64,000 nucleotides of DNA from Chaetoderma sp. LZ-2023a (taxonomy: Eukaryota > Mollusca > Caudofoveata > Chaetodermatida > Chaetodermatidae), in the NCBI GenBank assembly GCA_034401795.1, contig CM067373.1:41609781-41673780 (forward strand). Direction: 5' to 3'. Made by a program: the position numbers and the translations under genes. The notes below the pieces were generated by a model, which was not told the origin of the DNA, did no database searches, and saw nothing but the letters and a program-made list of their open reading frames with translations. Below are positions 18,120 through 58,552 of the stretch, in pieces (position 1 is the first letter of the stretch; each line of letters starts with the position of its first letter).

Positions 18120-18994
18120 TCATTTCAAAACAGCTAAAGGGAGTGGATTAGCGGAGTCTGACACACCCCTCATATAGTAATTCGTGAAAGAGGACTCACA
18201 GTGCCCTTGTGCAACAGCCATGATGTCCGCTAACAGAACACCATTGTAGAAGGCGGTTGAGATGGCTATTCCTCTAACATCCTGTGCCGTTGCGCATTGC
18301 ACCTGGTGCCCAGTCGCAGTCTCATGGGTGGTCTGAATGCAATCGACTACCCAACGAGAGATAGAATCCATGGATGCGGCACCATATGGCTTCTTATGGC
18401 AGATCCACACATGTCTATCATTCGACCATAATGAGCCTGTCCGTTTTTTGTACTTCGACACTGGCATCACGATCAAACCTAATTTGTTTCGGTATAATGA
18501 TCGGTTTGCCGGGATATTTCAAAGATTGATTCTTTGACATAAATTCTGCTCTTGGCAGAAGACGCAGACCCTCTGGAGACAATAAATCTGTCCCTCTCTG
18601 CTGAAAGCACATGGATCTCACTGCACCTTCTCGCTGGGGAAGCTGACATTAGAAAGACCGCCTTTAGAGTCAACCGCTTTAGACTGCCCGAACCCAAAGG
18701 TTCGATAGGGTGCTTGGCCAGTGCACTAAGCACTAACGATAGACTCCAGGCTGGAAAGACTACCGGTTGTCTCGGTCGGAGATTGGTCATTCCCTTCAGC
18801 ATCACATTTAACTGGGCCACCTCTGGACTATCCCTGTTGGCTAGACAAGGGATAACTGATGCCAAAGCTGACTTGTATCCAGCAATTGTGACAGGAGCTA
18901 GTCTGGAATAGAACAGCTCACAGAGAAAGTCTGCTATTTTCCTGAATAGTGGATTGAAAGGTATCAATACCCTTTCCTTCACACCTGTCTGCAA
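18120..18994 (-). pseudogene. DIRS-like tyrosine recombinase, frameshifted
   Basis: The N-terminal frame (18479-18994) has the DIRS/Ngaro pattern: Gly-Tyr-Lys-Ser-Ala-Leu, Leu-Lys-Gly-Met-x-Asn-Leu-Arg-Pro, and the first catalytic Arg in Pro-Ala-Arg-Arg-Cys-Ser-Glu. The C-terminal frame (18120-18476) has Asp-Val-Arg-Gly, an Asp-Ile-Met helix, and the His plus Tyr-Tyr-Met-Arg end that carries the nucleophile. The usual His-x-x-Arg appears as Gln-Asp-Val-Arg. Such recombinases integrate the circular DNA of DIRS elements. A frame break near 18480 makes it inactive. Confidence 0.75.
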
Positions 18995-19011
18995 ATTTGT
19001 TAACCCTGTGG

Positions 19012-19431
19012 TTATATGACTTGGACAGGGTCTGAACCAAGCATAGGAAGGGATTGCTCTACAGTCTTCGGCATCAGAGACGACACCAGCGTAGGTAGGA
19101 CGCGATGCAAGAAGCCTTGCATAGTGGGCCCAAACAACGCCGGAGGTGCCATCTCCGAAGCCTCCGCCTGCAGACGAGGAGCGCCGTCAGGTGTTGAAAC
19201 GGACGCTCCCCGATTTGATTTCGGACCACCTGACCCCCCCCCCCCCCCCCCATCAGACCCATACAAGTCCATCTAGGCAAGAAACTTAACTAGCAACTCA
19301 ACCGGCCACACTACACATACATTACATTTATTGTCAACATTACACTTGGAGCATCTAAAACAGACATGGTCCTTATAGGCAACCGTAACAAACTTGTGCC
19401 ATTCAGAGCAAGATGGCCGGGTAGGCTTGTC
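19012..19431 (-). pseudogene. DIRS-like gag N-terminus with zinc finger, truncated
   Basis: After an acceptor-like TTATTTTTTAG, the frame reads a Cys/His cluster (Cys-x2-Trp-His, then His-x-Cys-x2-Cys-x2-Cys-x5-Cys-x2-Cys). It meets a TAG at 19275 and continues in frame into a Gly-rich gag start (Met-Asp-Leu-Tyr-Gly-Ser-Asp). It ends at 19012. Only 17 bases separate this stop from the recombinase frame, so gag C-terminus, reverse transcriptase and RNase H have been deleted. The same arrangement, less the deletion, stands at 60.3-60.5 kb. Confidence 0.6.
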
Positions 19432-27968: not shown

Positions 27969-29485
27969 GCACGCATACACTAGCTTTTGATGTTCTAAAA
28001 ATTGAGTTGATTATGTAACAGGGATAGCACGATTACATATAGATACCGATCGGGAATCGGCGCCGGATCAGGATTACAATTTGATTGTTGCAAGTAGCCT
28101 ACGATATCTCAAAATTCAGAATCAGAAGGAGCTTGGCAGACAGTTTGGTGTGCTACAAGGAGACAATTGTTCGATTTTGGTGTCAGATGCGGATTCTGAA
28201 CCGGATCAACTTCAGAAAGTTTGGAAGTAGGGATTCTCGCAAATGAAGTGATTATATCAGCGTGGCGGCGGTATGCGCTCCAAAAGACAGCTCAAATATA
28301 GCTCCTTTAATTACTCACGTTGGTGACTTCTGAAATGGGTCCAGGAATGCCGCACCGCCACCCCACAACTTATGCATACGCACACGCTCTTAAAATTGAT
28401 ATTTAAGCACCAGCATTGGCTAACCATACACCGATGCAACAGATCTGACTTGCATATAGATCCATCAATGTATATGCATGCATATTGCCAGAGCATATTT
28501 TTTGGAAAGAATTCATCAGTCGTGCAGAGACCATTATATGGGGTAGGAAAGTACCAGCTAATTAAGATAATCACCTTCAAAATGGTGGACTATTTCAACC
28601 ATAACCCCTCAATATCGAAATCATCAATCATAAATGTAGGCTGTTGGATAGTCTGCAAGTAACTGGAATGAAGGATGCTGCTGCCTTTGCTATTGTTGCT
28701 ATCACATAGAATTAATTTTTAAACCTATTGAGTAGAATTTTCCAACAACGTTAGTCAGGTTGGAAATCAGAGAAATATGCCTCAATAAAATGTTAGAAGC
28801 ATTTTGGGGGAAAGGTTGGCAGATAACTTTTAAAAGATTATTCGAGGCTGCTGAATCCATTTTACTGTCTGCCAACCTGTCCCGAAGCTCTATAGTGGCC
28901 AAAATGGTTCAAAACAAAATGGCCGCCTCTGACCTTTCAATGTAATACGCAGCATTGCTCTTGCATTAAACCCATCTTCGACATTTATAATTTTGACAAA
29001 TGTGCTTGACTACATCTGGCCGCATCTAATACTGGAAACAGTAGATATGGCATCCATTTTAGATTTCAAGATGGCCGCCATGATAAAGACTAGTTCACGT
29101 ATTTCGGCTTCTACGTTACATTTGTGTATGGGTTACATTTTAGGTATTAGGGTTCAAATCCCTCCACACATCAAGAACAATAACTCTACAAGTTTCTGAA
29201 GTGGTGGAATAACTATTTCCAGCTGGAGTCATAGAAGGAATTGCATAACAAACATTATCTATAGACATGTTGAAAGATTGATATAATGAACCAATTGTGC
29301 ATCGAGCTGAAGCAACCGATATGGCATTTTTCATTACACATGGAAATGAGGAACACACCTGCACAGAATGGACAGACTTCAACTGACAAAGTAGTACAGT
29401 AGAAACAGTGTTAACAACGGTGGGATATACATGTATATACCAATTACATTGCACACAGTGGTATAACCATATAGGCATGTGGTAG

Positions 29486-29945
29486 ATAGACTTAGTCAAC
29501 AGTATGTAGTATTAACAGCAGATGAAGTGCCCTATTGTAAACGGCTAGAATTAGAATGGGCAAAGAAAGAATACCAGGACTTCCTAATCATCAGGCTTGC
29601 TGGATTCAACACTTCACCGACCTAGTCACATTTCTCAAGGTTATAGGAAAGCACATTCAGTCATCTGGATTATTGGATGCATTTGTTGAAGTTAACCTGC
29701 TCGGGCCTATAGAACAGCTGAACAAGTCCTGTCATGCAAGTCCTATGTTAGAGGAACGAGAACACACAAAATAGCCATCCAATCTATGTGGAGAAGTATT
29801 CCACGGTTACCGGGTGGAATTGATCAGGAAATCCCGCAACTCAGAAAAGAGACAGAAGAAGCAATTAATGAAGGGGATATGGAGGTACTCACCTCTCTTC
29901 TTGAAATGGATAAATTCAGAGATTTAATAGAATCAGTTATGTAGA
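29486..29945 (+). pseudogene. Relic of widespread uncharacterised invertebrate ORF family, middle part
   Basis: With frameshifts and stops removed only in thought, the line shows Val-Leu-Thr-Ala-Asp-x2-x-Tyr-Cys-Lys, Glu-Tyr-x-x-Phe-Leu-Ile, Phe-Leu-Lys-Val-Ile-Gly-Lys-His, Ser-Gly-Leu-Leu-Asp, and a Trp-Arg helical part. I know this order from many 'uncharacterized proteins' in cnidarian, mollusc and echinoderm genomes; I know no function. The longest intact piece is the frame 29556-29774. Confidence 0.45.
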
Positions 29946-30069
29946 GTCATTGGACAATATCATCTTCAGATTCCGGTGTAGTTACATGCATACATATGGT
30001 TCATATTGCACTTCTCTTCACCGGAGCCCTTCACAATAGAATTTGGGAATTCTAGTTGTTTGCATTTCA

Positions 30070-30480
30070 GTCAATGCTCATCCTTTACATGAGGTATTAT
30101 TATATAAACGATGCCAGATACGGAACAAGTGGGCATTGAGATCAGAAAGACAGTCCCTGTAGTTGTTGGAAAGTCGGCCATGACAAAAGAGGCTCTCCAA
30201 TCGGAATCCCCACATATACAGAGATCAACCAGATCATCAAACAACACCTGACTAAGAAGTGGAAAGATACACATATTCTCTTAGGCAGAAGAGACCGTTT
30301 CCACTCAGTATCAAGATAACAGCAGGTTGTCATATTCCACCTCAGGACTGGCCATTGCAGACTCCGAGCACATCTTTTCATTAACTAAAGATATGACACG
30401 CAAGGATCAAGAAAGAGTAGAGCATATAATCCAACATTGTATCCAGTATCGCAACACCACCCGACGCAATGTCCAATGAA
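30070..30480 (+). pseudogene. Non-LTR retrotransposon fragment (C-terminal region) inside E1
   Basis: A broken frame reads Glu-Ile-x-Gln-Ile-Ile-Lys, Lys-Lys-Trp-Lys, then Phe-His-Leu-Arg-Thr-Gly-His-Cys-Arg-Leu-Arg-x-His-Leu. The Arg-Thr-Gly-His-Cys motif is typical of the segment after RNase H in several LINE clades. It interrupts the uncharacterised ORF relic, so it inserted later or recombined in. Confidence 0.45.
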
Positions 30481-30549
30481 TACTCCAATGCAAGAGAAAC
30501 TGTATGGTAGCTACAACGACCTGGTAACTATAGCATCCTGGATCCCAGA

Positions 30550-30816
30550 CCATTTGTAGCCAACACATATGAACGCACGAATGAGAAAACTGCTAGATGG
30601 TGGACCGTTTATGTCAATGAGATGTATCAACTCACAGTAGAAGAGCTACATGAATTTCAGAGTGGCAACTTCGTTGTGAAGAAATTTAAGTGGATCCAAC
30701 GAAGACGGGAATGGTTGAACGGAACTGACAAGAAATTGCCAAACATCCCCAGCCTTGAACTGGTTGGCGCTGTCCTACGACCCAAGATCATGTATATCAC
30801 GCCGAGAAGAGACTGA
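30550..30816 (+). pseudogene. Relic of the same uncharacterised ORF family, later part
   Basis: The frame 30622-30816 contains Phe-Gln-Ser-Gly-Asn-Phe-Val-Val-Lys-Lys, which corresponds to the Phe-x-x-Gly-x-Phe-Val-Val segment I recall from this family, downstream of the part at 29486-29945. An in-frame stop lies just upstream near 30560. Confidence 0.35.
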
Positions 30817-31719
30817 TACCAGGATACACGCATTGTGTTGAGAACCAATCCAATAGGCTAAGCATGTATCCCAGAGATAATGATATTATGCTTCTCCTTC
30901 TGCATCACTACCACCTAATGTTGTGCACAAAACTGTGGCTAAAAACTAGCACTGCCAAAAAGAGGAAGTACAGACACATTCACACAATTATCGCGCATAT
31001 CAATTAAACCCATCCTCCATGTATATTGGCATTTATCACGTGTCGTGTAACCAAAGCGACCATCTTGAAATTCAATATGGCCATCATAATTATGCTAAAG
31101 ATTTTAAGGAACAATATTTATTGATCATCAGATATGATTGCCAGATGAGTTAAGACACTTTTATCATAGATTTAACTATCACCTTTGGTTTTACAAGTGG
31201 AAGCTGAATATGTATATTGAAATACTTTCAATGGCGGCCATTTTGATTTTCGCCCATTTAGCAGCCGGCTGGTTTGGCAGACAGCACCCTCAAATCATTA
31301 AGAAAAAAGTGTTTGGCAGCTTTTCCCCAAAAATGCCTCTAGAAGTTAGATTTTTCCAAAATCAGGCCAGTCTACGTGTATAATTTAGTATATACACGTG
31401 AAAGGTTAACTTATCAAGTTTAATAATTATGACGAATATGGGAACATATTGACAAAATCCCAGGAAAATCGCCAGAATAGGCCTGTTTTCTATTCACAGC
31501 GATTCGGTAAACGCCGAACGCACGCCTTTCTTACTACTATCATCACTCAGAAGTGCTTAACTATAAATAATAAACAGTAACGCGACAACAACATCTAACC
31601 GGTCACATGGCGGCCATCGGTTGCCGTCAATTAATATCGACATGAGTGTAATTACGTTTATCAGTAACTGAATTATGGGGTGTAGCCAATCAGCACTCAG
31701 AAAATTACAAATAACGGAG

Positions 31720-32053
31720 TCGGTCATTTCTATCGATCCCTGAACTCCCTGATTATCACTTTCCAGAAAACTATACAGGTAAGCCGTTGGATATTTTGAA
31801 GCTAATTTAGCTGGGTGCTGTTGCTGGACAGCAACAGCGTTCAGTCAAAATAGTTTCAAAGTATATAACAGCAAGTTTATTAACTAGTAAAAACATACAA
31901 TTTGTAAAACAACCCTTAGTCAGTCATCAATTAAGCGTTCGTGACGAACTTAGCTACGTCAATCATGACGTAATTGATTATGACGTAATACTACACGTCA
32001 CGTTGATGATTATGACGTCACATGATTGATGGATAAACTGCAATCCTCCATTC
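31720..32053 (-). mobile_element. Family M MITE, minus orientation
   Basis: Reads in reverse from ATCGATCCCTGAACTCCCTG through CCAGAAAACTATACAGGTAA, the palindrome GGTGCTGTTGCTGGACAGCAACAGCG, ACATACAATTTGTA, and the left end GATGATTATGACGTCACATG to CTGCAATCCTCCATT. Confidence 0.7.
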
Positions 32054-32065
32054 GAAACAAGTAGC

Positions 32066-32074
32066 AGTAGTAGC

Positions 32075-32107
<33 letters not shown>

Positions 32108-32135
32108 TGGTGGTAGTAGTAGTAGCAGTAGCAGT

Positions 32136-32180
<45 letters not shown>

Positions 32181-32265
32181 CAGTCTTCCCCTCTCTCTCC
32201 TCTCTCTTTCTCTCTCCCTCCCTCCCTCCCTCCCTCCCTCCCTCCCTCCCTCCCTCCCTCCCTCC

Positions 32266-32305
<40 letters not shown>

Positions 32306-32425
32306 CCTCCCTCCCTCTCTCCCTCTTTCTATCCATCTCCCTCTCTCTCCTCCCCCTCCCCCCCCCCTCTCTCTCTCTCTCTCCTCTCTCTCTCCCTCCC
32401 TCCCTCTCTCTCCTCCCCCTCCCCC

Positions 32426-32471
<46 letters not shown>

Positions 32472-32474
32472 TCT
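32066..32474 (+). repeat. (CAG/AGT)n then (CTCC)n and (CT)n microsatellite block
   Basis: 32066-32180 is AGT and CAG repeats, and 32190-32474 is CCTC and CT repeats with a short C run. The 187-residue Ser/Leu/Pro frame and the Arg/Glu-rich minus frame arise from it and are not genes. Confidence 0.95.
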
Positions 32475-32728
32475 CTCTGTTAAAATACCATCAGAGTTTC
32501 TTTATATGAAGAGATTGCCACTTATTAACTCCGGGGTTCGGGAGAGGCGTACGTCCGTTGTATTTAAATTCTGCAAATTCCATTATTTTGATCTGCTCAA
32601 AGCCTGCTGTATTGAAGCCCTTTCGCGAGTAGATACTCATAGCCTCGGCTACAACCACCTTGATTACTAGCTTAGAGACTAACTTAAACGATTCCTGCAG
32701 GAGATTTGACGCAACTCCTAGTTGGCGG
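32475..32728. other. No recognisable gene
   Basis: Ordinary DNA between the microsatellite block and the acetyltransferase-like piece. Nothing supported here. Confidence 0.5.
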
Positions 32729-33141
32729 TGGCTATCTTTAAGCCACGGAACATTGCGTATTTATCAACTCCATATTCCTGGAACACATCCGTTCCTTCCC
32801 ATAAGTTGGCCATAAGTTTGCTTTATACTCGTGCAGCTTAATGGTGTCATGGTTATCCTCCGGAGTGTCATATTTCAGCTCTGTGCCTGGAGTTACAACA
32901 TAGCTAACCCGAATGCCCACAATCTCAACGGATGATTTATCCACTGCTGTCATTCCAATGCCGTCTTCAATACATCGATCCACATTCGGGTTTACAAATG
33001 CCACCACTTCAAGGGAACGGCGAACGAAGGGCTTGGAATCATGCGAATAATCTGGTCCTTCCATAGGTATTCATAATACATGTCCTTGCAAACGTCGATA
33101 TCTTCCGCCTGCATTATCATGTACTCGATGTTAGCTGCCAT
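32729..33141 (-). pseudogene. GNAT N-acetyltransferase-like exon, partial or broken
   Basis: On the minus strand an ATG at 33141-33139 starts Met-Ala-Ala-Asn-Ile-Glu-Tyr and an acidic helix, as in dopamine/arylalkylamine-type acetyltransferases. It is preceded by a good acceptor (TGTTTTACAG) 22 bases upstream. After a frame change near 33060 the second frame (32738-33064) contains Ile-Glu-Asp-Gly-Ile-x-Met-x-Ala-Val-Asp, then Ile-Val-Gly-Ile-Arg-Val, the usual beta-strand pair before the acetyl-CoA motif. That motif and the C-terminus are not seen. It could be a live exon with a sequencing indel, or a pseudogene. Confidence 0.4.
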
Positions 33142-33466
33142 TCTTAGTTACCGCCTGACAATCTGTAAAACATCAAATAACAAGAACAATTAGCCTTTGC
33201 AAAATCCTCGACCTATCGTTTTTTTTATCATGTTGAACTGATTTTTCGGAGTTTTCTCTTGAAGACCTTGAAGTTGGTACTGCGTGAGACAATATGTGTT
33301 GAGCTACAGCATAACTATACAGACATATTAAATAATATGTTCTATTGGCACTTGCATGACAGCACGCACTATCGCCTGAGGAGACAAAATGTCGGCGACC
33401 ACACAGCAACACCAAAGAGATCTTAACACTTTAATGGCTAAATTTGGTTAAGAATAACAAAATATA
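33142..33466. other. No recognisable gene
   Basis: Contains the candidate splice acceptor of the acetyltransferase-like exon. An 80-residue minus frame (33173-33415) has no features I recognise. Confidence 0.4.
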
Positions 33467-33705
33467 GGCTTGTTTGAATGTCCATTGGAAGGCCCAGATA
33501 TGGCTATTTAAGAAATTCTACCACTGGGATGACTGGCCCTGTTACCCTGCAAAGAGGCCGGCCTTATAGTCATTCCAGCCATAAGCAGCAACGGCATCCA
33601 GCCAAATTACTTTCGAAATATTCAACAGTTTACCTGTATCGTTTTCTGGAAATCGAGAGCCAGAGAGTACAGGAATTGATCCCACACAGCAAGAGATGGT
33701 CCGGG
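33467..33705 (+). repeat. CCACTGG element, copy g, fused to family M fragment
   Basis: 33467-33580 keeps GAATGTCCATTGGAAGGCCC and CCACTGGGATGACTGGCCCT, with TAGTCATTCCAGCC as a decayed other arm. It passes directly into a family M right half (CAGCAACGGCATCCAGCCAA, CGTTTTCTGGAAATCGAGAG). Confidence 0.55.
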
Positions 33706-33850
33706 CATGATTATAAACATAAGTCTATGGCTTAGCATATCCATACACATAAATTAGTGGGGCTAATAACCACAACTATCTTGCAAATAGTGATACGAGC
33801 ATGAAATATGGCATGATTCAATTATGCATGCCACCTTTCATACCTACTCG

Positions 33851-34789
33851 ATTGGGCATTCAAAATTCCCATAAAACTCACCATTTACATATAAATGGAT
33901 GAATTTGGTAAATTTAAGTGATTTGTGGTTAGATGTAGATGTTTTCAAACGTCGTGAAACTGATTGTATCATTTTATCATTTTCGCCTGTTCTCGAGAAA
34001 AATCTGTTGCTCTTACGTGCCAATGCTGCTTGTAGTCCTTAGAACTATCAACTAATGCCAATGCATGGGATCTGTAGGGGTGTAGTGGTAGAGGTAGTAT
34101 AATTGCTATTCTCTGAATGGTCTCTGGCACTGGTCTTCAATGCCCACATATTTCTCACCTATGACTCCAAGAAATTGTCATAGCAAGACAACTGTCACAC
34201 CCCGGTAAACCGTGTTAGCTCGTGGGGTAGACGTTGTGTGGGTAACCTATAGAAGTTCTCTGCACGTGAGTATTCAGAGACCAAAATTACAATTGCGTGC
34301 AGTTAATAATATTCAATGCCTGAACAGACTCAAAAGGAAAAAGAGGACGTCGGTAAAAGAGTAAATGTCGCTGCACTACCAGGGCACACTGGTGCCATCA
34401 TTTCTGTAAAACTCAGCTCATGGCCCAGTGTCAGCTAGGCGATGTGTTTAGCATATATGGAGAGATAGTTGAAACTCCTTAGTGTTCAACATGATATCTA
34501 ACCAGCTCAACAAAGGTTAGCTAGCCGTATCTGAATTGACAGGGTAACCGGACTTTATTTGGCTGGATGGTGTACAGGCCGCACAAGACTTAAATGCCCC
34601 TGGATGTGCGATCGTGCTAGGTGTAGGGTAAATTTATGCACGAACCTGATTGTATTCTATAGAAACAAATTGCACAGGATACACAGTGGTAAATGGATAA
34701 ACGACAACACTGATAAACAAAGGATAATAAAAGTGTTGCCTTTGTCAAGAACACAAGAAGAAAACTCTTAAGTCACCACATACAAACCC
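33851..34789. other. E2 interior before the relic ORF
   Basis: No coding frame that I can support. It may hold the first part of the ORF in a fully decayed state. Confidence 0.3.
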
Positions 34790-35345
34790 CGCCGCTAAAG
34801 TAGAAGACGGGTATAACAAATTGGCGGAAATATCCTGCGGTTCCACTCCTTGAATGCACTACCAATGAAGCTGGACGGGTCAATACTACGTGGGGGTGGT
34901 CGGATAGATGAGAACTTTATGAAAATAATGCACAATATCATTAGAGCTGCATGATTCCGATAAACAACACAATGCTGTATACAGTTGGAAAAACGACATG
35001 GAACAGATAGATAAAAGAGCTGCAGTCGCAAGATTCTACGAAATGATGGAGATCTTACAGTCACCGAGAACAAGTACACCTAAATGTACAAACGTATGAA
35101 ACAAGGACTGAAACAACTTGATAGAAAGGAAAAAGAAAGTGCTTTCTGTAAGCTGGTCACTTACATCAGAAGACGAGAATTGCCAGTAAACGTACAGATC
35201 AAGCCATTTTACGTTCGCAGATTTAGTCACACTCTAGAAGCAGCGACATGAACAGCTTGAGGTTGCATCTCCAGATATGCATACTAATCGGCTAAATGAT
35301 CAATTGGTTTCACATATTCCCCGGCTAGAAACTCACAACCAAGGT
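34790..35345 (+). pseudogene. Uncharacterised ORF family, N-terminal part, decayed
   Basis: Frame pieces show a Lys-Glu-Ser-Ala-Phe-Cys-Lys-Leu helix, Ile-Lys-Pro-Phe-Tyr-Val, and Thr-Asn-Arg-Leu-Asn-Asp-x-Leu-Val-Ser-His-Ile-Pro. The last corresponds to the Thr-x-Arg-Leu-Lys-x-x-Ile/Leu segment of this family. Several stops and frame changes are present. Confidence 0.4.
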
Positions 35346-35659
35346 GTTTCAATTGCTTTCAAGTAGGATGTGTGCTCCATTCTGGTATGTGCTGTAGTTG
35401 TAGTAGGATTGTTGTCGATGTTATCCAGTGCGGGAGTCGCAAAAAACTGCTTTGTAAAAACTGGTTGGTAGATGGCATTGTCTTCCACATATTGAGCTAC
35501 AACTGATTCCCCATTTTGGGCGGACATTTCAAGAATTCTATTATAGGAAATGCTGAGCCCATGTTCATGGAGCATGCCAATAAGTTTTCTTTTCTGGGTC
35601 GTGGCCCATATATAGGGAGAGGAAGTTCGTTTCACTGAGGATATGGCCGACGCTGTCAA
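35333..35659 (-). pseudogene. Uncharacterised ORF family, next part, inverted in place
   Basis: A clean 108-residue frame on the opposite strand from both neighbours. It contains Lys-Arg-Lys-Leu-Ile-x-Met-Leu-His, Gly-Leu-Ser-Ile-Ser-Tyr-Asn-Arg-Ile-Leu, and Ala-x-Asp-Asn-Ile-Asp-x-Asn-Pro-Thr. These belong, in the family as I know it, between the part at 34790-35345 and the part at 35643. The block is therefore a local inversion of about 320 bases. Confidence 0.5.
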
Positions 35660-36420
35660 TATAACACGGGCATCCCATCATGTTACACAGAAGAAGATTC
35701 AGCGATTTGAAGCAAGTGTTTCGTCATTCCTTCCACTGATTCGTAATCAAGCTCACCATGTTGCCACAATCAAACATGGCATGGCGAAGATGCACGACAC
35801 AATAGCTTTCCTGAACCCAGGAGAAATACCAGTCATAGCTGCTGACCAACCACTCTATGCGCTTAACAAGCAAATTCAATGGAAATGGCCTGAATATGGA
35901 GAAGACAAGTTTGTGATCATGTTTGGTGGGCGTCATATTGAGAAGGCAGAATTGAGATCATTAGGAAAACTACTCCGGAACAGTGGTAGGACCAGCTCCC
36001 TTGTTGAGGCAGAAGTATCACCATCTGCCACAGCAGAGTCTTTGCTGTCTGGTAAGCACATCACATAACGACATGCCGTCTGTACACGCTGGTAAATGCA
36101 GTATACACTGACAACCGCTCTGATGCATCTGAGAAATCAGCTCTGAGCTTCGGAGACTGTTGTGAGCGACGGTTTCCCGGGTGTCCACAATTCAAGTTCT
36201 GGATTCTTATCCTGCCCATGGAGTTAACCATATTCAAACTGATCCGGTCATTCAGGGAAGCCAACATTGAACTATACAGTTTCATAGAAGAAACATTCTT
36301 GTCCACGAGAGAGTTCTCTATGCTGGCGATAGGCCACGCTCATGGACAAAACAACGCAGCCATCAAAGTTGATGGTGGAGCAATTGGTTTGACAGAGGAC
36401 CCAGTAGCACTTAGGCGATG
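35643..36420 (+). pseudogene. Uncharacterised ORF family, central part
   Basis: The frame 35643-36068 (141 residues) is intact and includes Ala-Phe-Leu-Asn-Pro-Gly-Glu-Ile-Pro, Asp-Gln-Pro-Leu-Tyr-Ala-Leu, Gly-Glu-Asp-Lys-Phe-Val-Ile-Met-Phe-Gly-Gly-x-His-Ile-Glu. After a stop the line continues with Cys-Pro-Gln-Phe-x-Phe-Trp and Phe-Arg-Glu-Ala-Asn. The usual Trp-Phe-x-Ala-x-x-His segment is deleted before Gln-Asn-Asn. These motifs are strongly conserved in the family but have no assigned function. Confidence 0.55.
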
Positions 36421-37025
36421 AATCGTGACTGGCCCTGAACTCAATCGCCTGGTTGATGGCTATGATGCAGTATCAGGTACAAAAGATGCAACAACCACCA
36501 ATTATGAAGACATCATGAGTGGATCACAAGTGCTCAAAGATTTTTCTTTGATCAAATACAAAATCTTTCAACTGTGTTACAGGACAGGAGTAATACTTTC
36601 CAGGAAGAGTCAGCTAGACTACTGGTGCTAGGTACAAAAGGTATTGCCGATCACTCCATTGCTGATATGATTGGAACACACCGCCAGAGAGGCGAAGAAC
36701 AGCTCAAAGCATTCATGGAAGTGCTAGAGGAGGAAGATAAACGCTCATCCTACCAGCCAATCAAGAGCAACAATGACACTCTCTTCAAACATGAACAAGT
36801 GGCCTGTAGTTCCAATGACAAGGTGCCGAAGGATGATTGTCAGCTCTTCTCCAGACTATTCATCTCATGCCAAACAAGGCAGATGCAATAATCCTAGATG
36901 GGCCAGCACTGATTAATTCCATTCCAAAACGTTCCTTAAAGACTTTTAATGAGTATGCCAGTGAAAATGTTCTCCAGAAGCTGAACTCCTACTGCTTCAA
37001 GTACAAGATGGTAGACGTAGTCTAA
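36421..37025 (+). pseudogene. Uncharacterised ORF family, C-terminal third
   Basis: Frames 36425-36631, 36574-36891 and 36837-37025 overlap and carry Val-Thr-Gly-Pro-Glu-Leu, Glu-Glu-Ser-Ala-x-Leu-Leu-Val-Leu-x-Thr-Lys, Asp-Asp-Cys-Gln-Leu-Phe-Ser-Arg-Leu, and Thr-Phe-Asn-Glu-Tyr-Ala. Two frame shifts separate them. The order agrees with the family. Confidence 0.5.
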
Positions 37026-38270
37026 AGTATGATGCAATGCCGAACTGGGGGTAATGGTGGCAGAAGAATGGTTACTGGAACAAGCACAACTCTGACAAAT
37101 TGGAACATCTCTCTACGATTTGATAACAACAAGCCTGCACTGCTAAGTTTCCCTGCAAAATGTGTGAAGCACGTACACCATGCATAATCATTGTATCAAA
37201 TGGCGAAGACGTGGTATGCAATCAGATGAGGTCGCTAGCTAATCTACAACCCCCCCCCCCCCCCCCCCCCGGCGCTCTCATGAGGAATCAGATGTACGCC
37301 TCTTTCGACATTCTAGACAAGCCACAGTAGAGAACAGCAAGGCACCCGTCATAAAATCCAATGACACCGATGCCATTGTTATATTCTTATTTGTTTTGGC
37401 ACGCCTGAAGTTGCTTCTTCTCTAGGAAGTGTGGATTATCTTTGGACAGCCAAAACACGATGGATCCCAGTACATGTGATAGTTACTGCAATAGGCCCAG
37501 CGAAATCCAGTGGGTGTGACAGTGTTGTGTTAGCCTAAAAGGAAGACATCTGCATGGCAGCCATACAACGTATGTCATGAGCTCTCCACGACCCTCACCA
37601 AACTCAGCCAGTGGCCATCAACAGTTGCTGACGATGGCCTTCAGATTTCCGGTGGTGATCATGGGTTGATCATTTGTAGTGATCAGGTATTACGCAAGGC
37701 TCGATGTCCAGCAAGCAGCGAGCGACCATATAGTACAATTCCAACCACTCAGTCAGCACTCGAGGAACATGTGAAGCGTGCAGTCTGCCAGCAGTAATAA
37801 TCGGAGGTCAGACCACAATCGCGCAACCAGACATTTGGTATCCTGTTGACTGGGGATAGACACAGAAGGGAGACATCTAGCAAATATACTGGGCAGACCT
37901 TCCAGCGATTGCGACAAGTAGTCAGGAACTGGTCAAGTGTTTCTGCAAGAAAGACTGCATCCATAGGTGTATATGCTTCCGATCTGGTCTCACATGCACG
38001 GCACTATGTGGCCGCGTGTGGCCAGTATGGGCAATATGCGAGAATGACATTCATGACGAACTTTAAAAACTGCGAATTGAACAACAGTGCAATTGCGATC
38101 ATGCTGAAAATTATTTGAATAACTGGGCGATTTTAACGTTCTTAATTATACGATAGCGGAGAGATTTTTAAACTAGTATAATCGGTTTCTGCTGGTGGAC
38201 AATAAATAAATCGACACCAGGAGCACTTTGACAAACGCCCTCTCTTTATACGACATTAAGTAATTCTGGT
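37026..38270 (+). pseudogene. Uncharacterised ORF family, decayed end, with poly-C tract
   Basis: Short pieces such as Trp-Asn-x-x-Leu-Arg-x-Asp-Asn-Asn-Lys and Leu-Glu-Glu-His-Val-Lys-Arg-Ala-Val (near 37740-37790) still follow the family order. A poly-C tract lies at 37247-37270. After 38000 I see no coding trace. Confidence 0.35.
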
Positions 38271-38440
38271 AGGTGAATTTGGGGGCCATGTTTAAAAATC
38301 GCCGCCATTTTGGATTTGCAAATGACCAACGGGGTAGATTTGAAAGTTGACCTGTATAGATTCACCATTCCAAATTTCTTATTTGTATCACCATTTGCAA
38401 GATTTTTCTGAAAAAATCCGCTGTTTATCTGCCCCCCACC

Positions 38441-39162: not shown

Positions 39163-39673
39163 CTAGCCTCCAGTAATATTACGTTCCTTGAACTGAGTTG
39201 AAAATTCACAATAGCACCATATTGGTGCATTATGGATAGCACCTCGCCATCTTGAAACACTCTCCATAAATTCTGCTCTTGGAAGCAGTCGTAGACCGTA
39301 TCCAGAGACAATAAATCGGTCCCTCTCTGCTGAAAGCATGTGGATCTCACTGAACCTTCTGGCTGAGGAAGATGCCAATAGAAAGACTATCTTAAGAGTC
39401 AAATGCTTTAGACTAACCGAACACATGGGTTTGAAAGGGTGCTTGGTTAGCACATTGAATGCCAAAGATAAACTCCAGGCTGGAATAACTACTGGTTGTT
39501 TTGGTCGGAGATTGCGTATTCCCTTCACCATCACGTTTAACTGGGCCACCTCTGGACTATCCCCGTTGGCTAGACAAGGGATAACTGATGCCAGAGCTGA
39601 ATTGTATCCAGCTACCATGACAGGAGCTAATCCTGTAAAGAATAGCTCACAGAGCTATATGTTATTAAATTAA
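39163..39673 (-). pseudogene. DIRS-like tyrosine recombinase, C-terminally truncated
   Basis: Closely similar to the copy at 18479-18994: Gly-Tyr-Asn-Ser-Ala-Leu-Ala-Ser, Val-Lys-Gly-Ile-Arg-Asn-Leu-Arg-Pro, and Ser-Ala-Arg-Arg-Phe-Ser-Glu-Ile-His with the first catalytic Arg. Soon after Leu-Pro-Arg-Ala-Glu-Phe-Met similarity ends, so the second His/Arg set and the Tyr nucleophile are absent. Confidence 0.7.
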
Positions 39674-41580: not shown

Positions 41581-44566
41581 TGTGTAGCTCGCATGGGTTT
41601 GTTGGGTCGTTTCGGTATGATGTACCCACCCGGCGTCAGGTCTCAGGTTTCCGGATCCCGTGGGATGTCTGTGAAATACATAGACCGGCTCCTAAGGCAG
41701 GTGGAACTCAATCGTTCCAGTGGGGCCATGCGATTATTGCCGCTGAGATTGAACTGTGCAGTGTCATCCCAGCTAGTCACCGGTATGTCTTACCATGATA
41801 GTTTCAGTCTATGGAGAATAAATTATAATAAACGTATTTTAACTGGGCAAACAAGGTTAATCGTTTGACAGTAAGTAAGCATATAAAATAATACATAAAG
41901 TAGAGCTAGCTAATGTACTTTGCACGTGGGGTCGCTGGAGGTACCACACAGATTTGTAGATCCGCAGAGGTATCCCCGCAAGGGAGGCATCCGCACAACG
42001 AGGGCACTGATTAACTTAACATAAGCTATTATACCTTCATGATACAGATAAAAGATTACTGATGCTATGAGAGGGATGTGCCTCACGTGGGCCCTGGTCA
42101 CATATATGCTACTTATTTGTGCGAGAGGTAATAGCCTCGCACAGGCCTCTGTCACAGGATATCTTGCTTATGCGAGAGGCAAGTGCCTCGCGCGGGCCTC
42201 CATCACAGGAAAATGCCTTCGACGACGAAGCGGAGGAAAAGAGCTGGCAAAAAGGGCCACTCTTTTGTTCAACAAAATGCTAGGCAAAAAGACCATCCTA
42301 GTGAAATATAATTAACATGATGCATACTGGTTTATGTGAAGACGGAGCAAGTGATTCCCAAGGGATTCACAATTTCCCGTCTTATGTTATTCTAAAATAC
42401 TGCATTGATAGGTGCCACTTTATTTATGCGGGCCTTCTACTATTCCGAACCTACCATTTATGTGTTAGAAACAAGAATTAGTTTAGGTTGGAAGTGGCAG
42501 AGATTCCTACCTATCATTAGATATATATATATATATATGCTTTCCAATATATATCACTATCTCACGGGTGCAGACACCCCGCTTCCCGTAGGGCACTTTG
42601 GAAAGCATCTACCTCCATGGACAGCAAGCGTACATGTTACTTTGCAACACATCTGAAATGGTTGAGAATCCAGATGCCCTACTTCATAACCAGATGAAAC
42701 ATCACTGGACGATGGTTACATTTTACACAATCAAATTTAATGACTACCATATCGTTACGGTGGGGGTAGAGAGATGAATATCCACTGCGAGTGTCCTTCC
42801 CGCACGGGCGTGGCAGATTCCAAGATCTTGCCCAGACACCACAACGAGTTGGGTGGTGATGCGCATCTCGTCCGTCTCCAATCTTATGGATCTAACTATT
42901 GACCTGACGTTAGGTTTAAGTTCCAATATGCCCAATATGCACTGTGGGCCAGGAATAAAAGATCATCCTACAATACTAAATAATAACTATCTGTTTTCGC
43001 AGTGCTTCCGTTCTTTGGCAAAGTGTCTAACTAATAAGCATCTCGATACAGGGGAGGTGTATGTAAACCTCCAATGCTTTCCCAGAGTCAGATCAGTCCA
43101 ACATGCCGGTGGGATATCCAAACAATTAAGAAACCTTGCGGCTGAATGGATCGTGGAAATAGACAATAACTTGATAGATATGAGGTCCTATAGATAATTG
43201 ACCAATTTAACACAACCTTGCCGGAGTGTGGGGCTAGATTATCACAACAACTGGAAAAGAGGCGTACACTATATGTCTCCTAACGAAGAAATTGTCCCTG
43301 ACCACTTTAAACATATCCTATCAAGCTGAATAGTAAGGTTAGTCGGTAGATTGCCGGGCTCAAGTAATTAAAGCATGGTCAGTGACCTCAGTGAAAAATG
43401 GTTGATTTGTGGTGTGTATATTGTTGCTGCATAGCGTTTCCTAGTGTACTGCGGTCCAAAGTTTTCTACAAAATAAACAAAACGGGATGCCATATACGTA
43501 ACTAACCAATGCATTTGAAACAATATCACAATCTCACAGAATGATTAAATGAGGTAGTAAGTATATATAGGTTAGTAACCTAAATGGTGCGGTCAGCTAG
43601 GCACTTACAGTAAACAAGGATAATATAGACAGTTAATACAGAAATTATAACTTGCGGTCCTAAGACCGGTGCGGTACCTATTAGTCATCAGTACCTTTTA
43701 CGGCCGTAAATTATATGAAATGACATAACATCTATAGTTACTTGAATACCTAATAGACATTGACGGAACAGGCTACTACATGCTACTGAATTTGAGGCGC
43801 TACCATATTTATATCACGAGTCGACACGTTCTCTGAGGCTGGACGTGTTTCTGCATGTGATTCCCGCAGCTGGTTTCTGCAGGCTGGGCTCCACACGCAG
43901 GCTCCAGTGTAGATACAGTACGAACTCAGGACAGTGAAACAGAGCAGTGAAGTCATGTCAATTAGATAGTCTCTATAGCTAAACCATATTTATACGGTAC
44001 AATTTATACGGCGTAAAGAAAGTTTCCCATCTGCGACAGTGTAGTATAATTAAACATAACCCATTAACAGGTAGGGTTACTATAAAATATTTCTATGCAT
44101 GTACATAATGAAGCACACGATGCAGGGTACGTCACATAGCTCTTGTGGCGCACCGGGCAAAGTCTGCTACGCTGCGGTCAAACAGTATAAAGTTACATCA
44201 CACGACATGCAGTGTGTTGGTTGAATTCCACATTCGGGTGGTCGGCAGATCCGGTGAGTCATCCACCGAGAAACATCGCTGCTCTACATTATGTAGAAGT
44301 TACATAATGGGTCACCAGGGCCCTCCCGTAGAAAGTTCCTCTGATAGATGTTCGGGAACACACATGTCGTCAATGAAGCGTCTGGGCGCACGCATGCGCA
44401 CTACGTGTTCTGACGTTTTTACGATGAAATGCCTCTCGTATAGGCTTATACACGCTTATTGCTCTACCCAGGTGGGTGCGCTTATGGGAACGAATCCAGG
44501 ACGGGCGGCCCGTACCCAGCTTGGTTGGGATGTCCAGTACCTGCCTGGGCGATCCGCACCACCACC
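41581..44566 (-). repeat. 3' LTR (left copy)
   Basis: Aligns with 55167-58548 throughout. In about 170 bases compared near 41780-41950, six differences were counted. It lacks a segment of about 500 bases present in the other copy. The upper boundary is uncertain, because the end reads CCACCACCACC where the other LTR has CTACACA. No ORF is shared by the two LTRs. Confidence 0.75.
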
Positions 44567-45718
44567 ACCCTCACCCAGTTTGACACCCGTCACAAACTCT
44601 CACGCCTCGCGGATCGAACGCATGGATGCACGCTAGGCGGGAATTATAGACTTCCCAGGTAGGCACGTGGCCTCAGAGAAGTAGTGACGCATGAGATGCT
44701 TACTTCAGAGAAAGAGCACATAGAGGGGCTGCAGATGGGTGTGGGGTGGGGGGGGGGGGAGGCATACCTTTAGTTTTGAATTTTGACCTGGAATTATTCT
44801 TTCCGGTTCTTTTCTTTTTTTGATTTATTTCGTGGTGCGTGCTGACTTTTATTATTATTTTTGACTATATGATCACTAAAACAATAGCTCGCATGGGTGC
44901 TCTCTTGGTTGCGGATACTTATATCTCCGCAGAGAACAACCAAGCTCCAACGTACCATAATTACTATATATAATATAATATGACAATATGTTATATAATC
45001 ATATAATATACCCGTTTGTTATGAGTATATATATATTAACGTTTTAATTAAAAGTGCATCCCAGGTAAATAAAGGGATGCATGGTTTATACTGATTACAT
45101 ATATTATTGTGTGGCCCGTTATTGCGGGTCCACACAGAACAGCTCTCGCTGTTCTTATATATACCCCGCCATTCTGATGTGGGGGTTAAAAATAATAAGC
45201 AAAATAGGAAAAACAATAAGGTATAAAAATGCTAGTTTGTCAAGCAGCCTGAGCGTAGCTGACACTGCGTGATGGGATTTTGACATTATTTCGCTGTGGT
45301 GCGTTGTGTACTGTACGTCGCACACGACGTGCTTACAACGCAAGGATCATGAGCGACTATTTTTGTGTGAGACACAGTTGTACAAGAATATTGCGCAGCT
45401 GTGTAGAATGACCGTGGTCATCCTCAGGGACTGGGTTGCAATTGTTAAAACATATATAATAATAAGAAAAGTATATCAAAAATAAATAATAATGTGCAGT
45501 ATTCCTTGATTCACACACTACTGATAAATTCTGCTGCATCCGTGGCAGAAATGCCTGCAAGTATCTGCTGCGAAATTGTCTGTTTAAGTTGATGCTGCAG
45601 GAGATGTAGTCGTAGTATTAGAAATGTTCGCACTTGTGACTGGCATGGCGGGTAGTGGGGCTGGTCGTCATTACTGTCGTCGTTGATGCCGTTGGCGTCG
45701 TTGATGCTGTTGCTGTTC
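44567..45718. other. Interior of LTR element next to 3' LTR, no gene
   Basis: Contains a poly-G run (44748-44759) and a pyrimidine-rich stretch at 44796-44826 on +, thus purine-rich on the element's sense strand. Another purine-rich stretch (GGGTGAGGGTGGTGGTGG on minus) touches the LTR and is the better polypurine-tract candidate. AT-rich hairpin-like DNA lies at 44960-45030. Confidence 0.4.
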
Positions 45719-49261: not shown

Positions 49262-50383
49262 TTACGGGGCATGGTCGGTACACCAAGTTGTACAGTTCTG
49301 CTGTTCTAGACATGCCAAGGCCTCATCTGGCCTCTTCACTTCCATGCCATTCACTATGTGTTCCACCCCACAGGAAGTGTGGCCTGGGTCTGCCTCAGCT
49401 TCCGCTTGTGGTAACTCGATAATGGGGGGCATAGCATGAAGTGGGTGGGAATGGGGGAGAGGTCCCTTAGACAAAACAAACGAGAAAGTCTTCAGATACG
49501 ACTTCCCAGATCGAGTAGACCCGTGCTGAGGAGGGAGAGGACGAGTACATATCTCGTCATCGTCCTCGGCATCAGCCACTTTTTCACCGGACTTCTGGCT
49601 TGGTAGAAGAAGGGTTGATCTGGCTCCGCGGTGCTCTGCACTGACATTGGGAATACTAGTTTCCGTAGATACTCCTGTCTGGGTACCTGTGCCATGGAGA
49701 ATGCCCAGCCCGAGCTCTGGTGCAGGGTCGTTACTAACATACGGTTTAAGCGGATCGAAGTGGATGACTGAGGTCAGGCCTTCCAAAGCACAGATATGAT
49801 AGGTCACATCCGACGTCTTACCTACTACCACATAGGGGCCTTTCCACTGGTAACTCAGTTCACTCAGCACGTTTGCAGATCGTCACGAATCGTGTACCAA
49901 ACCATTTTTCCTGCTTCATACAGGTCTCCATGCACCCTCCGGTCATGCCACATTTTTTGCCGCCAGTGTGCAGTGGATAGTGTTGCTCTCACTAACTCAT
50001 GAATCTGTTCTATCCACTGCCGCATGAGGTCGAGGTAGAGAGATGGTGAATTTTTCTCTCCTGGAATCCGAGGTATGGCCAGAACCAGGGGTAAGGCTAA
50101 TTCATGGCCTAAACTTAACCGAGCAGGAGTATAACCCGTGCTGGAATGTACTGAAGTGTGGTAAGCCATGAGAGTCATGGCTTACATGGGAGACACATGG
50201 GAGTCGTAGATCCCAATCTCGACAATCAAGGCGAGTTTCCTTCATCAACATTTCTGCTAGGGTGTGGTTGAAACGTTCCAGCATGCCGTCACCATGAGGG
50301 TGATAAGATGTTGTTCTTGTCTTGACGATGTGAAACAATTTGCAGAGCTCGGAGATCAGCATGGTATACATTTGGCAACCCAT
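49262..50383 (-). pseudogene. Ty3-type integrase, C-terminal part with GPY motif; core deleted
   Basis: Three frames follow each other. 50102-50383 has Lys-Thr-Arg-Thr-Thr-Ser-Tyr-His-Pro and Asp-Gly-Met-Leu-Glu-Arg-Phe-Asn (catalytic Glu). 49864-50178 has Tyr-His-Thr-Ser-Val-His-Ser-Ser-Thr-Gly-Tyr-Thr-Pro. 49262-49870 has Trp-Lys-Gly-Pro-Tyr-Val-Val and Phe-Asp-Pro-Leu-Lys-Pro-Tyr. The first two catalytic Asp residues and their surroundings are absent: the zinc-binding domain ends at about 50360 and runs straight into the region just before the Glu. There is no chromodomain. Confidence 0.75.
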
Positions 50384-51216
50384 GCCTTCACACTATCGCG
50401 AATCCCGATCCAGTGGAATCTCTGTTTTATCTGCATGAGTGTTCTTTCCATGGCTAGATGTCCCGCGTTATCATGCAGTTGAGCAAGTATTGTTTTACGA
50501 TAACATTCCGGGATTACCAGACGGTTGTTGATGTAAAGAACGTTGTTATTTATATGACATTCTTCAAACTGCTGGTAGTAGTATTTTGCCATGGCAGATA
50601 AAGGTGTAACAGTTTCCCAGGGAGGATGTACCCCATCCTGGATCCACGCGTATATATGTCGTGTTTGCGTGTCTGTTGTTTGGTCATGTGCAACTGTCTC
50701 CGGATTCCACTCTGTGCATCGCAATTCAAGGAACTCCGGGGATGGCTGTATTGCATGTGTCACGGTTGCAGCCTTTTTGTGTTCATCCTCTAGTCCAATT
50801 CTGCTCAAGGCATTGGCATTTCCATGTAATTTGCTAGGACGGTGAACAAAGTTAAAGTTATAGGCCTGCATGGATTCCTGCCATCTCGCTACCTGGCCCT
50901 CCAGGTTCTTGAGGCGCCTGAGACATTTTAGTGAGGCATGGTCTATACGGAGTGTGAATGGGTGGCCGTACAGAAAGTGTTCGTAAAACTTGATGAAATG
51001 TACTGCCACAAGTAGTTCTCGCTTCTCGGTCATGTACCTTCTTTCTGTTTTGTTGAGCATACGCAAACCATAACCCAGTACCTGCTCCGTTCCATACTCT
51101 GTGAACTGAGATAGAACCGTGCCAATAGCATAAGCTGACACGTCAGTGTCCAAGATGAAATCGAGATTAGGGTTAGAATGAGCAAGAATCGGGGCAGTCA
51201 TTAAGAGTTCCTTCAA
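50356..51216 (-). pseudogene. Ty3-type RNase H and integrase zinc-binding domain
   Basis: A long clean frame (286 residues). It shows Ile-Leu-Asp-Thr-Asp-Val-Ser (RNase H catalytic Asp), Tyr-Met-Thr-Glu-Lys-Arg-Glu-Leu, Leu-Arg-Ile-Asp-His-Ala-Ser-Leu (a further RNase H Asp), Asn-Ala-Leu-Ser-Arg at the end of RNase H, then His-x4-His...Cys-x2-Cys, the HHCC zinc finger of integrase. It ends in TGA just after Cys-Ile-Pro-Cys because of the core deletion. Confidence 0.85.
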
Positions 51217-51258
51217 TGCCCTGAAGGAACCTTCACACTCACTCGTCTACTCGAATGG

Positions 51259-52518
51259 TCAATCTTTTTTGGTGATCTTGAAAAGAGGAGATGCAATCTC
51301 ACTGTAATGATGGATGTATCTGCGATAGTACTGGCAGAGACCGAGAAAACTCTGAGTTTCAGTGACTGAAGAGGGCGTTTGCCACTCTGCTACTGCCTTA
51401 GTTCTTGACAGCTGAGTAGCCACTCCATCACCGGATATGATGTGTCTCAAGAACTCGACACTGTCTGAAGAGATGACATTTCTTGGGCTTGTGCTTTAAG
51501 TTGGCCGTGTGGAATCATGAAAGCACGCTGTCCAAATTTGTTAATGTTTGCTCAAATGAAGACCCAAAGACGATTACGTCGTCAATGTAACACAGGCAGA
51601 TCTCCCATTGCAGGGTGGTTAATACCTGCTCAATGAGACATTTGAATGTTCCGGGAGCATTGCACAAGCCATAGGGCATCTTGCGGAATTGGAAAAGACC
51701 ATCCCAACATACGAATGCAGTCTTTTCCATGTCAGCTTCATCCATGGCTACTTGCCAGTATCCACTAGCTAAATCACGGGTACAAAACCACTTGGCTCCG
51801 GACAAGGAATCCAAGGCCTGACCTATTCGTGGTAACGGATATGCGTCCTTGCCGCTGAGATCATTAAGGTGGCAGTAGTCTATACAAAAACGCAAGTCCC
51901 TATCCCTTTTGCCCATGGGGATGCTGATAGTTCAATAATACCAGTCCGCAACATGTCGTTCACTTGTTGGTGCACTTCTGCTTCTTTATGGATGGGAAGA
52001 CGTCGTACCGGTTGTCGCACTGGCCGATTGCTTCCTGTATCGATGGAGTGTCGCACTAGCTGAGTTTCTCCGAGATCCATGTCTCCGACCGAGAAACTAT
52101 CATGATACTTATAAGGTAATGTCCGTATATGCTCTTTTGGGGATTGCATCAATCCAACTGTGGCACGCAGATATAAATCATGTAGATGCTCCGGTAGGTC
52201 ATCGATTGTCATTGTCGGTGTTGTGGTGGGTTCGGGTGTTTCTGGTGAAATAACGTCCACCAAGTGGCCACAATGGACTCCTGATTCAAGAGTAATTGGG
52301 TCCGCTGTGCCATTGAACACTCTTAAGGGTATGTGTTCGTTGTTGGTGGTGTCCACGATCATGCGGGGACTTGCACATTGTGAAGTTATCATGTAATAAG
52401 GATCGGGTTTCAGCATGGTGGTGTGAGTGTTGCTTCCTAACTGTAGTGTGGTGGCCCATAAGATTCGTTCTTCTCCCGGCTCAACTGTGGGACTAGTTGG
52501 CAATATGAGTGCACACAT
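51259..52518 (-). pseudogene. Ty3-type reverse transcriptase, frameshifted
   Basis: 51880-52518 ends with the RT entry (Arg-Pro-Val-Arg-Arg-Leu-Pro, Met-Leu-Arg-Thr-Gly-Ile-Ile-Glu-Leu-Ser, Ser-Pro-Trp-Ala). 51515-51916 holds Leu-Arg-Phe-Cys-Ile-Asp-Tyr, Thr-Arg-Asp-Leu-Ala-Ser-Gly-Tyr-Trp-Gln (first Asp), Met-Pro-Tyr-Gly-Leu-Cys-Asn-Ala-Pro, and the Tyr-Ile-Asp-Asp box at 51578-51589. 51259-51450 has Ser-Phe-Leu-Gly-Leu-x2-Tyr-Tyr-Arg-Arg-Tyr-Ile. All catalytic residues are present; only frame shifts near 51905 and 51480 and a stop near 51250 break it. Confidence 0.85.
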
Positions 52519-58100: not shown

Positions 58101-58548
58101 GGCGGTAAAGTGACGTAGCAGGTCACGTGTCCACAAATCACTGTGCATTACGCTATGTATAGATATGCGATTACGACATTATAGAAATATTTCAAGTATA
58201 ATTTGACTGGGAGCCTCGACGCTAACACGGCCATTTCTTGACCGATTTTAAAACCTGATCGGTACCAAGAACGACGAAAGTAGATAGATTAAAGGTATTT
58301 ACAAGTACCAACTCGGTACACTAGAGGTACACACTTGCTCCCATTTTCGACAGTGTGTTGTAAATGAATCGTCTGAGCGCGCGCATGCTCACTACGAGTC
58401 CTAACGAAATTAGTCCCTCTCGTAAAGCCTTATACACACTTATTGCTCTACCCAGGAGGTGCGCTTATGGGACCGAATCCAGGACGGGTGGTCCGTACCC
58501 AGCTTGGCTGGGACGGCCAGTACCCGCCTGGTCGATCAGCGCTACACA
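55167..58548 (-). repeat. 5' LTR (right copy)
   Basis: Aligned with 41581-44566 (for example GAATAAATTATAATAAACGT, AGTAGAGCTAGCTAATGTAC and ACTTGCGGTCCTAAGACCGG in both). The lower end GCTCGCAGAGG touches the primer site. The upper end is GCTACACA. It includes 57830-58350, which the left LTR lacks and the LTR fragment at 17.6-17.95 kb shares in part. Confidence 0.8.
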
Positions 58549-58552
58549 TGCA
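58549..58552 (+). other. Target site duplication TGCA, right
   Basis: See 41577-41580. The DIRS-like sequence resumes directly after it. Confidence 0.65.

Follow-up and report, generated by a model that had tools for sequence, protein, structure and literature searches.

Two decayed transposon families with a predicted DDE core and XPG-like nuclease in a Chaetoderma genome, very probably members of the Academ superfamily

The nuclease encoded by AcademX elements, the nuclease-bearing lineage of the Academ superfamily of DNA transposons, is of the XPG type, and a zinc finger with eight cysteines (Cys8) is part of the definition of Academ. Elements of the hAT superfamily are flanked by 8-bp target site duplications (TSDs), and both Hermes, a hAT transposase, and RAG1 use hairpin-type excision. 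Academ is listed as a superfamily and credited to Kapitonov and Jurka 2010 (PMC4455052), and the passages of PMC3627910 on Academ name no enzyme other than a RecQ helicase. According to the relevant sections of PMC10045372, TSDs are 3 or 4 bp in AcademX and 9 or 10 bp in AcademH, apparently in relation to the encoded nuclease or helicase, respectively. In the parts of PMC10294476 that treat Academ, the mean length of the curated elements is 5,565 bp, and Academ is the third most numerous group with a DDE (Asp-Asp-Glu) transposase in the mollusc set, nearly confined to bivalves. Here, two relics of one protein family, each enclosed by terminal inverted repeats (TIRs), were analyzed in a 64,000-nucleotide stretch of the mollusc Chaetoderma sp. 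LZ-2023a (contig CM067373.1, positions 41,609,781 to 41,673,780), referred to below as the window, which is a repeat-rich part of a 2.44-Gb genome. The relics are very likely decayed copies of two Academ families of the AcademX lineage, an assignment made from features of the elements and of their gene.

Termini, target site duplications and gene content of the elements

The features that delimit the two elements are as follows.

28749..28751, no strand: left TSD of element 1, CGT, same letters at 31375-31377
28752..31374, + strand: element 1, with termini TAGTCAGG...CCAGTCTA that match ends in the genome copies
28752..29076, + strand: left TIR of element 1, from the alignment of 28794-29076 with 31079-31341
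31079..31374, - strand: right TIR of element 1, from the alignment with the left arm
31375..31377, no strand: right TSD of element 1, CGT, same letters at 28749-28751
33755..38440, + strand, right end approximate: element 2, a TIR pair; copies begin at 33754 and stop at 38433-38435
33755..33864, + strand: left TIR of element 2, from local alignment
38315..38440, - strand: right TIR of element 2, outermost bases decayed, from alignment and copy comparison

In local gapped alignments, the arms of element 1 (28794-29076 and 31079-31341) and of element 2 (33771-33864 and 38315-38410) paired in inverted orientation with scores of 59 and 42, compared to means of 15.9 and 14.5 and maxima of 25 and 24 in 200 dinucleotide shuffles, respectively. 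Both scores lay above all shuffles, in agreement with the sequence-only reading that each relic is enclosed by inverted terminal sequences. Within the window, each arm recurred solely as its own pair, except for two weak matches (E 0.006-0.007). An inverted pair located between the elements (31732-31826 and 33586-33680) proved to be part of a multi-copy repeat of the window that resembles a miniature inverted-repeat transposable element (MITE), and was rejected as a TIR. The ends of the two elements differ from this repeat, which answers the concern that they might be an unrelated MITE.

The outermost 42 bases of the element 1 TIRs are only weakly alike, and the limits of the element were fixed by comparison with copies elsewhere in the genome. 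A genome search with relic 1 gave 53 matches (40 of 102 candidates scored), and 20 loci were fetched. Homology with the window began at 28751-28755 in 12 of the 20 loci; in nine, it ended at 31374 with the orientation unchanged. Reading outward, TAGTCAGG starts at 28752 and CCAGTCTA ends at 31374 with CGT on either side, and this choice was the only one of eight TAG/CTA combinations with a 3-bp flank match. Because the family 1 copies with both ends are 4.4-6.6 kb long compared to 2,623 bp in the window, element 1 is a deletion derivative of a longer family; it lacks internal blocks at 30798 and 31000 that are present in the genome copies. For family 2, the search yielded 118 matches, with 40 of 204 candidates scored. 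When the first four fetched loci were compared with the window, homology began at 33754 in two of them and stopped at 38433-38435 in all four, placing the right end of element 2 near 38435-38440. This terminus is decayed in the window and its target duplication is not readable. The best-kept family 2 ends were TAGTGGGGC...GCCCCACTA, and both ends were present in six of 11 loci examined, five of 4.8-5.3 kb and one of 3.6 kb.

TSDs were counted with TAG...CTA as the boundary, and left and right flanks taken from different copies served as control. An exact 3-bp TSD was found in 3/9 two-ended copies of family 1 (CGT in the window, ATA in L019 and TAC in L021) and in 2/6 of family 2 (L039 and L041), compared to 3/72 and 0/30 control pairings, respectively. 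Taken per position, 16/27 and 9/18 matched, compared to 49/216 and 30/90 in cross-paired flanks, respectively. For both families together, the exact duplication was present in 5/15 two-ended copies and absent from 10, compared to 3/102 cross-pairings. No 9- or 10-bp TSD was found in these 15 copies, nor an 8-bp TSD in the nine of family 1. These findings, together with the termini shared between copies, show that genuine TIRs with short TSDs bound the elements, as had been proposed. A contig filed under a Bathymodiolus symbiont (L002), which is presumably mussel DNA, also had ends TAGTAGGGTGCCC on both sides, with TTA flanks. A TIR sequence common to family 1, family 2 and L002 was rejected, as the ends are alike no further than TAG. 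Among 12 cross comparisons of ends, one, between the right ends of elements 1 and 2, had a score that only 4/200 shuffles reached.

When six of the nine two-ended family 1 copies were scanned, all six contained core and nuclease pieces inside the termini on one strand; the eight-cysteine end was not detected in these six. In the six two-ended family 2 copies, 737-1,343 of 1,495 profile positions were covered, on one strand only in every copy, and coverage extended to position 1493-1494, including the cysteine end. In the five copies of 4.8-5.3 kb, approximately 0.8-1.1 kb to the left of the gene and 0.4 kb to its right are free. The shared-termini check thus placed gene-bearing copies between common termini, and the view that the open reading frame (ORF) is the element's own gene was supported.

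The encoded protein family and its relics

The best stretch of relic 2, read in a single frame, served as query and gave 20 relatives among 429 candidates. The profile of these 20 gave 1,663 matches at E ≤ 1e-5 (7,990 candidates scored), of which the best 120 were listed. Complete relatives are approximately 1,490-1,540 amino acids long. Named sources included coelacanth and octocoral among the first 20 relatives and, further, eel, carp, porcelain crab, stony coral, limpet and amphioxus among the matches listed. In alignments of 64 and 65 rows hand-picked from these best 120 matches, the DDE triad was formed by D472 and D643 (each 64/64) and E861 (58/58, six gaps). With regard to the C/DxxH motif that hAT, P, MuDR, Kolobok and Dada transposases have between the second Asp and the Glu, the sequence DQAH directly precedes the catalytic Glu (D and H 58/58, six gaps), and GGLH stands 28 residues past the second Asp. 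Eight acidic residues of the nuclease were invariant (65/65), and eight C-terminal cysteine columns were kept in 61-62 of 65 rows, with three to four rows gapped.

The core was predicted to adopt an RNase-H-like fold, closest to Hermes, in which a long helical segment is inserted after the second Asp and before the Glu. The sequence-only reading had suggested looking for an RNase-H-like or other nuclease site, and the predicted fold is that of a DDE transposase. The C-terminal domain was predicted to adopt an XPG/FEN1/EXO1-like nuclease fold, with 10-18 % identity in structural alignments. The single gene of the elements encodes zinc fingers, followed by the predicted DDE core and XPG/FEN1-like nuclease and by an eight-cysteine end.

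The Pfam family PF20231 (DUF6589), whose function is listed as unknown, overlaps the core from about the second Asp to the Glu. Its gathering cutoff was passed by one of 14 proteins scanned (P0002, 32 versus 27 bits), the rest being below it or without a match. Protein database annotation lists DUF6589 for 3/20 of the first relatives and 12/120 of the matches listed. No paper found by literature search mentions DUF6589, and PF20231 appeared solely in an unrelated optics paper. NCBIfam gave nothing for four relatives, and the Rfam scan gave nothing. A sequence search of the PDB with P0017, which lacks the first Asp, returned one short chance match and neither Hermes nor RAG1. No relative was found in viral contigs scanned with four queries or in phage records with P0022.

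A Planctomycetota metagenome-assembled contig (L001, JAJRVU010000273.1) contains an open frame of the animal transposon family that is almost full-length, and another fragment lies in the mussel symbiont record L002. Both are probably eukaryotic DNA in bacterial assemblies.

The pieces of the family recognized in the window are listed below, with independent E-values (i-E) from profile searches unless stated otherwise.

29458..29616, + strand: relic 1, transposase core piece surrounding the second catalytic Asp (i-E 0.041 with the combined profile and 6.5e-4 in a phmmer search with the L001 protein)
29628..29791, + strand: relic 1, weak core pieces, supportive by order only (i-E 1.4 and 7.4)
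30571..30687, + strand: relic 1, core piece just before the catalytic Glu (i-E 3.6e-4)
30801..31034, + strand: relic 1, XPG-like nuclease piece (i-E 5.7e-5; 1.9e-5 in another profile search)
34725..34829, + strand: relic 2, N-terminal zinc-finger start (i-E 4.9e-6)
35160..35420, + strand: relic 2, region between zinc fingers and core (i-E 2.4e-13)
35366..35614, - strand: relic 2, inverted segment of ~250 bp with the region of the first catalytic Asp (i-E 2.5e-27; tblastn; translation)
35619..36071, + strand: relic 2, core segment that includes the FGG motif and, in ADQPLYA, the second catalytic Asp (i-E 2.5e-63)
36038..36280, + strand: relic 2, helical insertion between second Asp and Glu (i-E 2.6e-20)
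36302..36499, + strand: relic 2, end of core, catalytic Glu lost in this copy (i-E 1.1e-22; translation)
36487..36909, + strand: relic 2, linker (i-E 4.3e-36)
36852..37196, + strand: relic 2, XPG-like nuclease, first half (i-E 6.8e-19)
37276..37794, + strand: relic 2, XPG-like nuclease, second half (i-E 1.7e-21)
37791..38009, + strand: relic 2, C-terminal cysteine-rich (eight-cysteine) end (i-E 3.5e-20)

Relic 2 matched the profile in pieces from position 14 to 1490 (of 1,496) within 34725-38009, and Pfam searches with three of its ORF pieces gave chance-level matches only. Profile positions ~413-494 are inverted at 35366-35611 and positions ~495-568 are missing. The copies L033-L036 matched the inverted segment 35366-35614 in the opposite orientation. 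Relic 1 comprises four collinear + strand pieces (29458-31034), which were the top profile matches of the six-frame window outside relic 2; a fifth piece (i-E 7.4) was at noise level. A homologue search with a relic 1 region gave 49 candidates, none at E ≤ 0.001. Relic 1 belongs to a more distant clade, recognized by its collinear pieces. Both elements in the window are dead.

Elements 1 and 2, plus flanking sequence, are matched by another locus of this contig (L012 and L040, 74.78-74.82 Mb), with the two matches approximately 35 kb apart; it looks like an old segmental duplication of the window. L040 aligned straight across the 35366-35614 inversion, and the inversion is therefore older than that duplication.

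Relation to Academ, rival explanations and proposed mechanism

The elements share with AcademX a DDE transposase with a nuclease, a 3-bp TSD, TIRs and a length of approximately 5 kb, and no difference was found in the element itself. The eight conserved C-terminal cysteines also agree with the Cys8 finger of the Academ definition. Because a DDE transposase that occurs together with a nuclease and a 3-bp TSD is what has been published for AcademX (PMC10045372, in the sections on this group), the elements are assigned to a known kind, and the proposal of an undescribed class of DNA transposon is not supported; the class is very probably already known. AcademH, of the same superfamily, differs in having a helicase and a 9-10 bp TSD (PMC10045372, same sections). 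A helicase-type Academ was rejected, since no helicase family was found in the 14 proteins scanned with Pfam, the family 2 gene leaves little of the element free in the five copies measured above, and none of the 15 copies had a TSD of that length. In its predicted RNase-H-like fold and in the helical insertion that separates the second Asp from the Glu, the core resembles Hermes and RAG1/Transib, from which the elements differ in the fused nuclease and the 3-bp TSD. The predicted C-terminal fold and its invariant acids resemble EXO1, FEN1 and XPG, whereas here the nuclease is fused to a transposase. Kolobok lineages also combine a DDE transposase with a nuclease, but those described in the pertinent part of PMC9587614 are of the PD-D/ExK, His-Me or DEDDh type, in contrast to the XPG-like nuclease here.

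Three other explanations were weighed. A host gene family flanked on either side by unrelated inserted MITEs has in its favor that the window is rich in MITE-like inverted repeats, with one pair lying between the elements. However, the arms occur in the window as pairs, bar the two weak matches, and unlinked copies have exact ends in common with the gene inside, some with TSDs; this explanation is refuted by the shared termini and its probability is close to nil. The protein might instead be cargo in elements moved by another transposase, such as that of hAT or Kolobok, in line with a core fold nearest to Hermes. This is very improbable, as the gene fills most of the family 2 element, leaving only the short flanks given above in five copies, and the 8-bp duplication of hAT was seen in 0/9 family 1 copies.

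An undescribed DDE superfamily, like Academ merely in its nuclease and short TSDs, is unlikely, though somewhat less so than the other two. In its favor, the Academ assignment is made from features, Pfam lists the overlapping domain just as DUF6589 of unknown function, a term found in no paper of the literature searched, and the limpet relative fits poorly with the near restriction of Academ to bivalves among molluscs reported in the mollusc survey sections of PMC10294476. Against it, transposase, nuclease, 3-bp TSD and length are all as published for AcademX in the corresponding sections of PMC10045372 and PMC10294476. Under the AcademX assignment, the host range looks wider than that bivalve-centered account (PMC10294476, same sections).

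In the proposed mechanism, the zinc fingers would bind the TIRs, and the DDE core would cut both ends and join them to a new site with a 3-bp stagger. Because the core resembles Hermes and RAG1, the long helical segment ahead of the Glu included, excision would probably be of the hairpin type and leave hairpins on the flanking donor ends. The XPG-like nuclease may then trim flaps, or open or process those ends. A broader and more tentative idea, to which we give less than even weight, is that the 'uncharacterized protein'/DUF6589 group of animals, perhaps also of fungi, is one hAT/RAG-like DDE lineage, and that the FEN1/XPG nuclease fused to the core serves the element as its own enzyme for end processing, opening or trimming hairpin or flap intermediates, a task that hAT and RAG leave to repair nucleases of the host. 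The reading of the folds as a hAT/RAG-like core with a flap nuclease makes an accessory nuclease role in Academ transposition testable. These findings also mean that an 'uncharacterized protein' found very commonly in marine animals is the product of a transposon gene, and that gene catalogues are wrong to count it among host families.

Other features of the window

Between the two elements, a decayed GNAT acetyltransferase-like reading was present on the minus strand at 32494-33147 (Pfam E 0.064, below cutoff). It sits between two inverted copies of the MITE-like repeat and is possibly a captured gene or retrocopy. Long direct repeats of 80-87 % identity (41640-44581 and 55262-58567) lie on either side of a minus-strand Gypsy-like pol, with reverse transcriptase at 51518-51931 and RNase H plus integrase zinc domain at 50359-51246. 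Similar minus-strand ORFs at 18482-19186 and 39166-39654 gave no Pfam match and resemble, by eye, a DIRS-type tyrosine recombinase.
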